A DNA stretch of 45,782 nucleotides. Source: Treponema sp. (GTDB lineage Bacteria > Spirochaetota > Spirochaetia > Treponematales > Treponemataceae). The notes under the pieces are model-generated. The model saw nothing but the letters and a program-made list of their open reading frames with translations. It was not told the DNA's origin and did not search any database. The position numbers and the translations under genes are program-made. Below are positions 9,673 to 31,060 of this stretch, piece by piece (positions within the stretch are counted from its first letter, which is position 1; each line of letters begins with the position of its first letter). The stretch is from positions 1 to 45,782 of the forward strand of contig JAHBAD010000111.1 in the NCBI GenBank assembly GCA_018385395.1, read 5' to 3'.

Positions 9673-11535
9673 ATGGAAAATTCTAAAAGAACTGTAACTT
9701 GCGGTGACCTTCGCAAGGCAGATGTTGGTAAAAAGGTCGTATTGAACGGTTGGGTAAGCCGCGCCCGTGACTTGGGTGGACTCACATTCATCATGCTCCG
9801 TGACCGTTACGGAATCACTCAGGTAATGGTTGGGGATTCTGCAAGCGACGACGTTAAAAAAATCGCTTCATCACTTAAAAGTGAATATTGTATTGCCGTG
9901 GAAGGTGTAGTTGCCGCCCGCGCTGACAAAGATATTAACCCTGACATGGCTACAGGTGAAATTGAAGTTGAAGCCACAGATATTGAAATCTTTACAACTA
10001 GCCAGGAATTGCCATTCTCAATTGAAGAAGTTCGCCAGAAAGACGGAACGATTGTTCTTCCAAACGAAGACCTGCGCCTTAAATACCGCTATCTGGACCT
10101 TCGCCGCGAGCCAATGCAGAAAAATATTATTCTGCGTTCACAGGTAACTTTTGCAACACGCGAATACCTTACATCAAAAGGTGTTTTGGAAATTGAAACT
10201 CCAACTTTCATTAAATCTACTCCAGAAGGTGCCCGTGACTACCTGGTTCCAAGCCGTGTTCACCCTGGAAAATTCTATTCACTTCCACAGAGCCCACAGC
10301 TTTACAAACAGCTGCTCATGGTTTCTGGATTCGACAAGTATTTCCAGATTGCACGCTGTTACCGTGATGAAGATGCTCGTGGTGACCGTCAGCCAGAATT
10401 CACACAGATTGATATGGAAATGTCATTCACCAACCGTGAAGAAGTTCTTTCTACAACAGAAGGAATGATGCAGCACATTTTCAAGAAAACTCTGAACTAC
10501 GATCTTCCTGCAAAATTTGACCGCATCACTTGGGAAGACGCATTTGACCTTTACGGTTCAGATAAACCTGACCTCCGTTTTGATATGAAAATGCAGGATG
10601 CCGCTTTCATGGCAGACATTTCTGATTTTGCTGCATTCAAAGCAGGCGCTGCAAAAGCAGACAAAGCTCTTCCACGCCACGAACGTTCAGGACTCAAAGC
10701 CCTGGTTGTTAAAAACGTTGCAGACAAATACAGCCGCAAAATGATTGAAGCTTTGGAAGCTGTTGCAAAAACCTACAAGGCAAAAGGTCTTGCATGGATG
10801 AAAGTGACCGAAGGTCATCCTGAGCTTGCCGAAGGATCTTGTAAATTGGCTTTCGAAGGCGGTATCTCAAAGTTCTACGCTGGAAAAGAAGCTGAAGTTT
10901 GTGCAAAACTTGGAGCTGAAAAAAATGACCTTCTGCTTTTTGTAAGCGACGAAAAATGGCAGCTTGCATGTACAGCTCTTGGTGCTGTTCGTAAACAGCT
11001 TGGTAAAGATCTGAACCTGTACAACCCAGAAGATGAATTCCACTTTGCATGGATCATCGACTTCCCATACTTTGCATGGAACGAAGAAGAAAATCACTGG
11101 GAAACAGAACACCACATGTTCACGCTTCCACAGAAAAAATACTGGGACACACTGGAATCAGATCCTGGTGAAGTAAAAGGTGACCTTTACGACCTGGTAC
11201 TGAACGGATACGAACTTGCGTCAGGTTCTATGCGTATCAACGACCCTGCCCTCCAGCAGAAGATTTTCAAAATCGTTGGTTACTCAAACGAACGCGCAGA
11301 AAAAGCATTCGGCTTTTTGGTACAGGCATTCAAATTCGGTGCTCCACCACACGGAGGAATTGCCCCAGGACTTGACCGCCTGATCATGCTCATGCGCCAC
11401 GAAGAAAGCATCCACGAAGTAATCGCATTCCCTAAGAATAACCTGGCAGCAAGCCCAATGGACGAGTGCCCGGCTCCAGTAGACGAGCAGCAGTTGAAGG
11501 ATTTACATATCACCTGTTACGATGTAGAAGAATAA
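9673..11535 (+). CDS. aspS: Aspartate--tRNA ligase
   Basis: Charges tRNA-Asp with aspartate in the cytoplasm. The bacterial-type layout is complete: an N-terminal OB-fold anticodon-binding domain (GWVSRARDLGGLTFIMLRD near residue 30), class II motif 2 (CYRDEDARGDRQPEFTQIDM near 230), an inserted GAD-type domain (about 290-420) and motif 3 (GGIAPGLDRLIML near 565). At 620 residues it is slightly longer than the usual 580-600. The last 19 codons including the stop (11479-11535) are remarkable because two more copies of this tail lie downstream at 11673-11729 and 12043-12087, separated by hairpin repeats. The start is set by a strong promoter placed so close that the mRNA should be leaderless. 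Confidence 0.97.
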   Translation: MENSKRTVTCGDLRKADVGKKVVLNGWVSRARDLGGLTFIMLRDRYGITQVMVGDSASDDVKKIASSLKSEYCIAVEGVVAARADKDINPDMATGEIEVEATDIEIFTTSQELPFSIEEVRQKDGTIVLPNEDLRLKYRYLDLRREPMQKNIILRSQVTFATREYLTSKGVLEIETPTFIKSTPEGARDYLVPSRVHPGKFYSLPQSPQLYKQLLMVSGFDKYFQIARCYRDEDARGDRQPEFTQIDMEMSFTNREEVLSTTEGMMQHIFKKTLNYDLPAKFDRITWEDAFDLYGSDKPDLRFDMKMQDAAFMADISDFAAFKAGAAKADKALPRHERSGLKALVVKNVADKYSRKMIEALEAVAKTYKAKGLAWMKVTEGHPELAEGSCKLAFEGGISKFYAGKEAEVCAKLGAEKNDLLLFVSDEKWQLACTALGAVRKQLGKDLNLYNPEDEFHFAWIIDFPYFAWNEEENHWETEHHMFTLPQKKYWDTLESDPGEVKGDLYDLVLNGYELASGSMRINDPALQQKIFKIVGYSNERAEKAFGFLVQAFKFGAPPHGGIAPGLDRLIMLMRHEESIHEVIAFPKNNLAASPMDECPAPVDEQQLKDLHITCYDVEE

Positions 11536-11540
11536 TCTGG

Positions 11541-12040
11541 GCTTGCTGCGTAGCAGCGAACCAATGGATTGAGGGTTGATAATTTTATATCAACCCTCAA
11601 AACGGCTGAGTCAAGGGCTTGAGAGAGCGATAGCGAACGTCCCTTGACCAGACATATGAATGTCCAAGTGCGGTAGATCAGACTCAGTTGGATGATTTAC
11701 ATATTGTAGTTACTGATCCCGAAGTATAATTGGGGAAGCTGCGTAGCAGCGAACCAATGGATTGAGGGTTGATAATTTTTAGCAACCCTCAAAACGGCTG
11801 AGTCAAGGGCTTGAGAGAGCGATAGCGAACGTCCCTTGACCGGGCGTATAAGGGTTGATAATTTTTAGCAACCCTCAAAACGGCTGAGTCAAGGGCTTGA
11901 GAGAGCGATAGCGAACGTCCCTTGACCAGACATATGAATGTCCAAGTGCCGTAGATGGCGGGTGTAGGCTTGTCCTGATACCCGACAAACAATTGAGTCA
12001 AGGCCGAAGAGCGAAGCGTGCCTTGACCAATTGTATGAAA
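11541..12040. repeat. Hairpin repeat island downstream of aspS
   Basis: This gap holds three copies (11571-11649, 11764-11841, 11851-11927) of a block with two hairpins: GAGGGTTGAT facing an inverted copy about 10 bases on, and TCAAGGG facing CCCTTGA about 23 bases on. A fourth, diverged hairpin at 11990-12033 has TCAAGGC facing GCCTTGA, a compensatory change in the last pair. The first two blocks begin with the small hairpin GCTGCGTAGCAGC. The segment ATGAATGTCCAAGTGC recurs at about 11656 and 11936. I see no credible gene here. Confidence 0.85.
11673..11729 (+). pseudogene. Detached second copy of the aspS 3' end (variant allele)
   Basis: Read in frame this 57-base stretch gives VDQTQLDDLHIVVTDPEV and a stop, against VDEQQLKDLHITCYDVEE and a stop at the end of the intact aspS; both stretches have exactly the same length. 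It is preceded by hairpin repeats rather than by the rest of the gene. The differences look like those between alleles or species, suggesting it is the displaced former end of aspS or a tail brought in with the repeat. Confidence 0.75.
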
Positions 12041-12042
12041 AT

Positions 12043-12087
12043 CAATTAAAAGATCTTCATATCACCTGTTACGATGTAGAAGAATAA
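12043..12087 (+). pseudogene. Detached third copy of the aspS 3' end
   Basis: This 45-base stretch decodes as QLKDLHITCYDVEE plus stop, the same as the end of the intact gene. The last 30 bases (12058-12087) are identical to 11506-11535, while the first 15 differ at synonymous positions. It directly follows the hairpin island and ends 21 bases before the tautomerase start. Confidence 0.8.
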
Positions 12088-12108
12088 TTGTGAAATAAGG
12101 AATTTTAT

Positions 12109-20229: not shown

Positions 20230-20245
20230 AAGCAAAAAAAATACG

Positions 20246-20362
20246 CGAGGAAAGAAAGCATGCTCGCCAGCAGGACTCGTAGCGCGGCTTGAAAGTTTCC
20301 TATCCGCGCGTACGCGTCCAGCGACGCTAGCTAGCGTTGCTGGCAGCTGCTTTCTGACCGGG
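20246..20362. repeat. Multi-branched structured repeat, copy 1
   Basis: Four helices can be drawn. P1 is AGAAAGCA 20253-20260 with TGCTTTCT 20348-20355. P2 is GCCAGCA 20266-20272 with TGCTGGC 20338-20344. P3 is CGTAGCGCGG 20278-20287 with CCGCGCGTACG 20304-20314 (one bulge). P4 is the palindrome ACGCTAGCTAGCGT 20324-20337. Copy 2 at 24073 shares the plan, and its helices differ by paired changes, so the fold itself appears to be conserved. It may be an RNA, a cruciform or the body of a small non-autonomous element. Confidence 0.8.
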
Positions 20363-20415
20363 AGCATTTTGAAATGCTTCTATAAAATCTCTTTATTTTG
20401 CAGTAAAATGACTTT

Positions 20416-21924
20416 ATGTCTTTTATTTCTCTTCAACATATCTCAAAAACTTTTGGTGAAGTCCACGCAAACAGTGATGTAAGCCTTGATATTGAAAAAG
20501 GCGAAATCCTGGCTCTGCTTGGAGAAAACGGTTCAGGGAAAACAACCCTGGTTAACATGCTTGCCGGCCTTTATTCCCCTGACGAAGGAAGCATTTTTAT
20601 TGACGGCAAAAAACAGAATTTCGCCCGCCCTGCAGATTCTATTGCAGCCGGAATCGGTATGGTGCACCAGCACTACCTTCTTGTGGATGTTATGTCTGCT
20701 CTGGAAAACATTACAATGGGCGAAGCAAAAGCTGGATTCTTTGTAAACAAAAAACAGATCCGTGAAAAAATCCTGAAGCTTGAAGAGACTTACGGACTCA
20801 AAATCGATCCTGATAAAAAAATCTACGAAATGTCTGTCAGCGAAAAACAGACTGTAGAAATCCTTAAAGTTCTTTATCGCGGCGCAAATATCCTTATTCT
20901 TGATGAACCAACAGCCGTTCTGACACCGCAGGAAACTGAGCACCTTTTTGATGTTCTCCGCCGCATGAAAGAAGCAGGTTGTACTGTAATCATCATTACA
21001 CACAAAATGAATGAAGTTATGACCATTTCTGACCGTGTTGCAGTGCTTAGAAAGGGCGAATTCGTGGGAATTGTACAGACAAAAGCCTCAAATCCTGCAG
21101 AATTAACCGCTTTAATGGTAGGACGCGCAATCAGCCTGGAAATTGACAGGCCTGCTGTAGAAAAGAGCGAAAACCCGCTTTTGTCTGTACAAAACATCAC
21201 TTTTACCAATGATGAAGAAAACCGCAAGATACTTGATGATATGTCTTTCGATCTTTATGGAGGCGAAATCCTTGGTGTTGCAGGCATTGCAGGTTCAGGA
21301 CAGAAAGAACTTTGTGAAGCAATTGCTGGCCTTCTGAAGCCTGAAAACGGTTCCATTAAATTCATGGGGGACGAGCTTATCGGGCTTTCGCCCCTTGCAA
21401 TCAAAAAGAAGGGACTTCGCATGAGCTTTGTTCCGGAGGACCGCCTTGGAATGGGTCTTGTTGCCGGCATGAATATTATCGACAACGTTATGCTCAAAAC
21501 CTACGATGAAACAAAAGGCATCTTCATGGACCGCGAAGCCGGTAAAAACCGGGCAGAAGCAATCGTAGGTGAATACGATATTTCAACTCCATCAATTAAA
21601 CATCAGGTTAAAAAACTTTCCGGCGGAAATATTCAGAAAGTTCTTCTTGGACGCGAAATCGGGATGAAGCCAAAAGTTCTGGTTACTGCCTACCCTGTCC
21701 GCGGACTTGATATTGGTGCCAGCTATACAGTTTATGACATGCTGAACCAGCAGAAGAAAAAAGGCATCGGTGTAATGTTCATAGGCGAAGATCTTGATGT
21801 CCTCATGGCTCTATCTGACCGCCTTATGGTTATTCACGATGGGAAAGTTATGGGCATTGTTAATCCAAAAGAAATTAGTAAAGAAGACGTGGGCATGATG
21901 ATGCTTGGCGATTCACAGGAGTAA
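20416..21924 (+). CDS. Nucleoside/sugar-type ABC importer, double ATP-binding subunit
   Basis: A 502-residue ATPase with two nucleotide-binding domains, of the class that drives BmpA-type nucleoside importers (NupO-like) and simple-sugar importers. The first half has Walker A GENGSGKT and Walker B ILILDEPTAVL but a weak signature (MSVSEKQ). The second half has a degenerate P-loop (GIAGSGQKE), a good LSGGNIQK signature and a Walker B region reading VLVTAYPVRGLD, where this class usually has QPTRGLD. Such asymmetry is usual in the class. Two permease genes follow at once (3 bases, then overlap), making an operon. TAAAAT at 20404-20409 is 6 bases before the ATG and there is no Shine-Dalgarno. 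Confidence 0.9.
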   Translation: MSFISLQHISKTFGEVHANSDVSLDIEKGEILALLGENGSGKTTLVNMLAGLYSPDEGSIFIDGKKQNFARPADSIAAGIGMVHQHYLLVDVMSALENITMGEAKAGFFVNKKQIREKILKLEETYGLKIDPDKKIYEMSVSEKQTVEILKVLYRGANILILDEPTAVLTPQETEHLFDVLRRMKEAGCTVIIITHKMNEVMTISDRVAVLRKGEFVGIVQTKASNPAELTALMVGRAISLEIDRPAVEKSENPLLSVQNITFTNDEENRKILDDMSFDLYGGEILGVAGIAGSGQKELCEAIAGLLKPENGSIKFMGDELIGLSPLAIKKKGLRMSFVPEDRLGMGLVAGMNIIDNVMLKTYDETKGIFMDREAGKNRAEAIVGEYDISTPSIKHQVKKLSGGNIQKVLLGREIGMKPKVLVTAYPVRGLDIGASYTVYDMLNQQKKKGIGVMFIGEDLDVLMALSDRLMVIHDGKVMGIVNPKEISKEDVGMMMLGDSQE

Positions 21925-23934: not shown

Positions 23935-24049
23935 GTGGAGGGGGAAAGCCAAACGACCTTTGGTCGGCACTTCGTTGCCTCCACACCCCCTTCTCCGGGG
24001 TTCCACCCCGGCCCCTTTTCCAAAGTCAGAGACATCTCCTTTGGAAAAG
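23935..24049. terminator. Hairpin cluster and likely terminator after the ABC operon
   Basis: GTGGAGG 23935-23941 faces CCTCCAC 23978-23984 and encloses the hairpin CGACCTTTGGTCG. Next come CCGGGG 23996-24001 facing CCCCGG 24007-24012, and CTTTTCCAAAG 24015-24025 facing CTTTGGAAAAG 24039-24049. There is no strong T run, so termination is likely but not certain. Confidence 0.6.
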
Positions 24050-24072
24050 ACTATAATAAATGAAAACTTACG

Positions 24073-24313
24073 CGAGGAAATAAATCATGCTAGCCAGTAG
24101 GACTCGTAGCGTGGCTTGATAGTTTCCTCTCCATGCTACGCGTCCAGTGACGCTAGCTACGACCTTCGGCCGTTTGCCTATTGGAAACTATTTAAGTCGG
24201 CGTGCATTAAGCGCGCCTTGGGCATACGACCTTTGGTCGTTTGCCTAGTGGAAATAATTTACGTCGCCGCGAAACGCGGCTTGGGCATAGCGTTACTGGC
24301 AGCTGATTTATGA
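24073..24313. repeat. Multi-branched structured repeat, copy 2, with a nested insert
   Basis: The same plan as copy 1 at 20246: P1 ATAAATCA 24080-24087 with TGATTTAT 24304-24311; P2 GCCAGTA 24093-24099 with TACTGGC 24294-24300; P3 CGTAGCGTGG 24105-24114 with CCATGCTACG 24131-24140; P4 ACGCT 24150-24154 with AGCGT 24289-24293. The P4 loop, four bases in copy 1, is 134 bases here and contains two tandem units (24159-24225 and 24226-24288), each with its own two hairpins. Confidence 0.82.
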
Positions 24314-24363
24314 CCGTGAGTCAGTTTTTAAGTTTTTGTAATTATTTTTCAAAGGAGATATAT

Positions 24364-30270: not shown

Positions 30271-30342
30271 TTTTCCTCCAACATATAAATAGATTTTTTT
30301 TGGTTTTTCAGGCAAATACAGGAGGAATTTTTGAAAATTTTT

Positions 30343-31060
30343 CGAAATTCTCACACCTTTGGGGTAAAAATCACAGAAAGGTGTGAGTTTTCTGTGCCTG
30401 TCACACCGTTTGGAACGGACATTTCGACGTTACAAGCAGTAACGAAGGTAACAAAAATAACAAAAGGGGACATAACAAAAGGGGACAGACCCCTACTTGA
30501 GCCCCTACTTGAACTTCAAAAACTCACACCTTTTGATGTAAAATCACAGAAAAGTGTGAGTTTTCTGTTACAAAAGGGGTCAGACCCCTACTTGAATTTC
30601 AAAAACTCACACCTTAGGGGTAAAAATCACAGAAAGGTGTGTGTTTTCTGTGCCTGTCGCACCGTTTGGAACGGACATTTCGCCGTTACAAGCAGTAACA
30701 AAGGTAACAAAAGGGGACAGACCCCTACTTAATCTTCAAAAACACACACCTTTGGGGTAAAAATCACAGAAAGGTGTGAGTTTTCTGTGCCTGTCACACC
30801 GTTTGGAACGGACATTTCGCCGTTACAAGTAGTAACAAAGGTAATAAAAGGGGACAGACCCCCTACTTAATCTTCAAAAACTCACACCTTTTGAAGAAAA
30901 TCACAGAAAAGTGTGAGTTTTCTGTGCCTGTGGCTCTGTTTGGAACGGACATTTCGCCGTTACAAGTAGTATCAAAGGTAGCAAAAGGGGACAGACCCCT
31001 ACTTGAACTTCAAAAACTCACACCTTAGGGGTAAAAATCACAGAAAGGTGTGAGTTTTTA
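30343..31060. repeat. Tandem array of about 137-bp repeats
   Basis: The segment CTCACACC, or CACACACC in the fourth, recurs at about 30350, 30523, 30606, 30743, 30881 and 31017. Each unit has a left arm AAAACTCACACCTT and, about 20 bases on, its complement AAGGTGTGAGTTTT. These are followed by CCGTTTGGAACGG, ACAAGCAGTAACAAAGGTAA and the palindrome-like GGGGACAGACCCCT. The second unit lacks its middle. Unit-to-unit identity is high, suggesting recent expansion or gene conversion. No protein-coding signal was found. Confidence 0.9.

Follow-up and report, generated by a model that had tools for sequence, protein, structure and literature searches.

A probable small mobile element of gut Treponema in the P4 loop of an unrelated structured repeat

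Introduction

CGTC-tagged REPs are defined by a CGTC directly before a stem of 8–9 bp and by a CCA tail (PMC3733652), and CGTC repeats, including two RPE families, have no linked transposase (PMC3733652; PMC10969869). In Treponema, long attC sites have been reported for T. succinifaciens (PMC3607928). The literature on Treponema repeats yielded no description of the short folded repeat reported here, which we refer to as the unit.

The window analyzed, 45,782 nt in length, corresponds to contig C107 in a draft genome of 2.27 Mb from a Treponema sp. (G000, the home genome). This genome is fragmented (171 contigs, 84% complete) and several unit copies lie at contig ends. The genus sample comprised 196 genomes, largely drafts, and copy numbers are to be read as lower bounds. 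Searches of Rfam returned no match in the window above the gathering score, and only chance-level matches at a relaxed threshold.

Results

The window contains two copies of a structured repeat, the outer element, the second of which holds two units in the loop of its P4 hairpin. The relevant features are:

20242..20366, + strand: outer element copy 1, P4 loop empty (R2 match of 126 bits at 20240-20368)
23950..23966, + strand: hairpin CGACCTTTGGTCG within another repeat (at L004, on contig C23 of the home genome, the same flanking repeat is accompanied by a full unit)
24067..24320, + strand: outer element copy 2, P4 loop filled (87% to copy 1 by blastn; covariance model R2, 49 bits)
24149..24158, + strand: P4 5' arm and insertion site (GACGCTAGCT^; the empty homologues in copy 1, C99, C96, C23, C82 and C146 have GACGCTAGCTAGCGTT)
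24159..24225, + strand: unit 1, 67 nt, ACG...GCAT, hairpin A CGACC-TTC-GGCCG plus core (from sequence; R1 core match at 24172-24226, 62 bits)
24226..24288, + strand: unit 2, 63 nt, hairpin A CGACC-TTT-GGTCG plus core (from sequence; R1 core match at 24239-24289, 69 bits)
24289..24296, + strand: P4 3' arm (AGCGTTAC; by comparison with the same empty homologues)

The first-pass annotation had described a tandem two-unit module inserted exactly in the P4 loop, and this description was borne out. In copy 1 the loop consists of AGCT (GACGCT-AGCT-AGCGTT); in copy 2 it holds a further 130 nt besides AGCT, made up of tandem units of 67 and 63 nt that each run ACGACCTT...TTGGGCAT with the boundaries ACG...GCAT as annotated. 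The insertion point is the exact apical loop; empty copies of the same subfamily elsewhere in the home genome confirmed it, and the same point is filled in several elements of G000, G056 and G070. Both units lie 3' of the base T, with no clear target duplication. The annotation had also stated that the stems differ between the units while staying paired, which holds for the second hairpin (GGCGTGC/GCGCGCC versus GCCGCG/CGCGGC), whereas the first hairpin of unit 1 has an A.C mismatch and is not fully paired. Unit 2 was unusually stable (z -3.25), unit 1 alone was not (z -1.0), and the outer element with its insert folded 7.6 s.d. below shuffled sequences.

The two units belong to different subfamilies. 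Because they are only 78% identical to one another and unit 2 has a closer relative (94%) on another contig, C149, they look like successive insertions and not a local duplication; for unit 1, identity to copies elsewhere reaches 87%. The two-unit insertion explains why outer-element copies 1 and 2 differ. The further CGACCTTTGGTCG hairpin that had been noted at 23954-23966 is present, and is probably the scar of a lost unit, since a deletion between the two GGTCG copies of L004 would yield the form found in the window.

The outer element has 42 consensus pairs, and two-sided changes at 23 of these (nine aligned copies, inserts removed) indicate a conserved fold. The home genome contains 33 matches to it, and 57 of the 196 genus genomes carry it; among the matches listed nearly all are 124–130 nt in length, such that their P4 loop is empty. 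An ABC transporter ATPase ORF at 20416 is downstream of copy 1. The outer element often occurs in inverted pairs about 48 nt apart, like REPIN/BIME dimers (L296, G000:C99; L297, G000:C96), with further pairs in other genomes (L298, G029:C65; L299, G056:C63), and one partner of such a pair may have a different P4-region sequence. The P4 region of a related element likewise differs in sequence (C99, C96, C145). An inverted motif is common to P2 of the outer element (window 20285-20300, - strand) and the unit core (GGAAACTATCAAG versus GGAAATTATTTAAG), and is perhaps a common recognition site.

Three other features of the window were recorded. An integron integrase C-terminus remnant is at the contig end (45551-45781, - strand; TIGR02249, 120 bits, one internal stop). 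At 30315-31058 a 77-nt repeat occurs six times, mostly at a spacing of 137 nt, and contains GGGGTCAGACCCC-type palindromes, similar to the GGGGTCTGTCCCC palindromes that flank a RAYT-like gene on contig C123 (L055). A direct-repeat cluster (76–95 nt) with CAACCCTCAAAACGGCTGAGTCAAGGG motifs is at 11461-12088.

The unit proved to be a dispersed family of about 36 copies in the home genome. The R1 covariance model gave 35 matches there plus two cut off at contig ends, blastn placed the unit at many other locations (best E 5e-22), and the core pattern with up to three mismatches matched 37 times versus seven in the reversed control. The core is TTTGC-NTANAGGAAATTATTTAAGTC-hairpin B-TTGNGCAT and lies 3' of the variable hairpin A, whose arms are termed T and T'; the consensus of 24 aligned cores was GTTTGCNTANAGGAAATTATTTAAGTCGCCGC...GCGGCTTGNGCATA. 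Pairing is kept in 91% of cells, and in the C9 array TTTGC/GCATA has undergone a compensatory change to TTTAC/GTATA. Matches were found in 85 of the 196 genomes, and when a large collection of genomes was scanned with an exact pattern, only Treponema records were retrieved, among them T. porcinum.

These data bear on the proposal in the first-pass annotation that the outer element grows modularly at its apical loop, which was not upheld: the unit is an independent family, and roughly 27 of the 36 home-genome copies lie outside the structured repeat. Nor does the unit always sit in a P4 loop, as only about nine of the 36 do. The annotation had named units lying mostly outside, at random places, as the finding that would count against it; they do lie mostly outside, but their locations are not random, and include attC sites, arrays and gene ends.

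In the home genome filled P4 loops are present in copy 2 (two units), C29, C58 and C75, as well as in C104, C38, C103 and C149, these four on the evidence of half copies, most of them at the ends of contigs. Beyond it they occur in G070 (L126) and G056 (L090, L137). A precise empty/filled pair within one subfamily is provided by C99 and C96 (empty) and C29 (filled). Relative to the outer element, units in P4 loops stand either way round, as a palindromic loop would lead one to expect. L160 has empty and filled integron attC sites within one array, and at L097 and L113 units are in or beside attC sites, as judged by motifs. Unit arrays with variable hairpins in between are found on C9, C132, C139 and C130. 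A minority of copies are inside ORFs: L089, L095 and L101 are at the same place in orthologous ORFs of three species, and these ORFs, as also that of L132, run uninterrupted across the unit on the strand opposite to it. L016 (G000:C117) is near a tRNA gene and flanked by direct and inverted T-arm copies (GGTTCAAACCCAG), and the flank of L128 (G070:C75) is similar to this T-arm-bearing flank.

Three further ideas were rejected. That units sit in hairpin loops is weak as a general rule, with no significant preference over 84 sites (nine above the 95% control and one above the 99% control). An initial stem test without anchoring could not tell sites apart from controls. An exact TA target duplication is contradicted by 38 of the 84 sites ending GCATC, not GCATA, the base T being the minimal shared base. 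The long attC sites of T. succinifaciens might have been attC plus unit; however, G132, a congener whose integron is intact, has long attC-like repeats that do not match the unit.

At least nine gene 3' ends carry a unit: uvrB, rplJ, flgC, mutS2, a BPD_transp_2 permease, an ABC ATPase, an FGGY kinase, a DUF6937/6938 protein and a protein without a Pfam match. The order at these ends is gene tail T, stop, T' (a short inverted copy of the start of T) and core, followed in most by a second T, and in the cases read T starts with an in-frame tyrosine codon. Over the 84 sites direct repeats exceeded the 99% control in 12 and hairpin-A arms in only 11. The flgC site is empty in G080, G029 and G056 and filled in G000 and G070, while the uvrB site is empty in G029 and G080 and filled in G056, G070 and G000. 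At both, the right tail copy and downstream flank resemble the native ends of the empty relatives. The left and right flgC tails differ at 11–13 positions, each of them either a synonymous change or part of the stop codon. The uvrB tail differences are mostly synonymous, and one between-species amino-acid difference appears in the left tail as well as the right, suggesting that the two tails have exchanged sequence.

Two candidate mobilizers were considered, and neither proved to be linked to the unit. The Y1 transposase (PF01797) is absent from the high-copy genomes G177, G070, G030, G127 and G167, and was rejected as a present-day driver because most high-copy genomes lack it. Intact IntI showed no association with the unit over the 196 genomes (both in 21, unit only in 64, IntI only in 36, neither in 75; p = 0.27) and was likewise rejected. 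As Y1 is missing from several high-copy genomes and IntI does not track the unit, the mobilizing enzyme could be extinct, distant or absent.

Discussion

The unit is a repeat family with its own structure, has empty and filled sites, nests within another repeat and is found in both orientations. We consider it probable that it is a small, non-autonomous, structure-defined mobile element of gut Treponema, and that two different units landed successively in the palindromic P4 loop of an unrelated repeat. Against this reading count the failure of either candidate mobilizer to track the unit, the fact that no transposition event was observed, the non-significant preference for hairpin loops over the 84 sites and the small number of these (11) with hairpin-A arms above the 99% control. 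The findings show a single repeat family whose landing sites include structured repeats of other kinds, attC sites of integrons and the ends of genes.

Under this mobile-element reading the unit would insert whole, as ACG...GCAT, on the 3' side of a T, and would have neither terminal inverted repeats nor a clear target duplication. The lack of both fits single-strand (HUH-like) movement better than ordinary DDE transposition. Ends without inverted repeats, hairpins near both ends and the fact that several landing sites are hairpins lead us to propose that the unit may have been moved in trans as a folded single strand, by HUH-like logic. The content of the hairpin A loop would travel with it; in one clade that content would include gene 3' ends, with the host gene left intact after insertion there. 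A more tentative possibility, which we hold to be rather doubtful at present, is that these are mobile cassettes of less than 150 nt whose homing sites are the 3' ends of conserved genes and which bear their own synonymously different tail and stop, such that insertion into uvrB, rplJ, flgC, mutS2 and similar genes is harmless and tails are swapped across lineages. If confirmed, this would mean that very small elements enter conserved genes by end replacement, and would provide a mechanism, open to testing, by which species exchange gene tails.

The main rival with regard to mechanism is template switching, in which a stalled nascent strand copies the target tail, folds back to make T', switches to a core where CGTTTGC offers microhomology and comes back at GCATACG, with no need for a dedicated enzyme. 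The T' sequences speak for it, being perfect or near-perfect inverted copies of the start of T (19 bp long in L091 and 12 bp in both L136 and L143, while the 16 bp copy of L130 contains a mismatch), as does the direct abutment of T' on TTTGC and the direct repetition of T after the core. We nevertheless regard it as unlikely, as the 11–13 differences between the flgC tails and a right copy like the native end of empty relatives are unlike a local copy of the resident tail. Modular growth, by which the outer element would duplicate an internal module and enlarge its own P4 loop, is very unlikely: it would account for the exact apical insertion and the related element with a different P4-region sequence, and tandem duplication does occur elsewhere (the L147 array alternates A B A B at 100% identity), but most units are outside the outer element, both orientations are found and the window units, 78% alike, have nearer relatives elsewhere.

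Two further readings appear still less plausible. Units often lie directly 3' of stop codons and have strong hairpins with compensatory changes, as would a selected regulatory or terminator-type RNA element that does not move, yet such an element is highly improbable given the patchy distribution, the empty orthologous sites and the copies within ORFs and other repeats. The least credible in our view is integron-type recombination, with units as attC-like sites moved by IntI. The units in or beside attC sites and the resemblance of arrays with variable cargo and conserved core to cassette arrays favor it, but the unit ends are devoid of AAC/GTT core triplets, intact IntI does not track the unit, and the high-copy genomes G177, G070 and G056 have no match above the IntI cut-off.

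Among known systems, integron gene cassettes share with the unit a variable cargo beside a conserved folded site and a tandem arrangement; the cargo of the unit, however, is about 10–80 nt, and the unit has neither attC triplets nor a link to IntI. Bacterial MITEs (ERIC, RUP, Correia) are likewise non-autonomous, short and dispersed. The unit differs from them in that its ends, ACG... and ...GCAT, are not mutual inverted repeats, and the empty/filled pairs at P4 and attC require no target duplication beyond one T. GTAG-type REP/REPIN sequences (RAYT) are also small folded repeats, and the outer element forms inverted pairs, but the unit has no GTAG end, most high-copy genomes are without the Y1 transposase, and the RAYT-like gene of the home genome is near GGGGTCTGTCCCC repeats and not near the unit. 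The closest in behavior are the RPEs and CGTC-tagged REPs, although the defining CGTC tag, stem and CCA tail are not those of the unit, which has CGTC in few copies (e.g., unit 2), stems of 5–7 bp and a TTGNGCA tail. Like RPEs, which are short palindromic repeats between and inside genes, the unit lies within an ORF in three species, and the in-frame presence in coding genes that marks RPEs is seen in a minority of its copies (L089, L095, L101, L132). CGTC repeats share with the unit the lack of a linked transposase. What sets the Treponema unit apart from RPEs is the combination of two hairpins, a long asymmetric internal loop, tandem arrays and gene-tail cargo.
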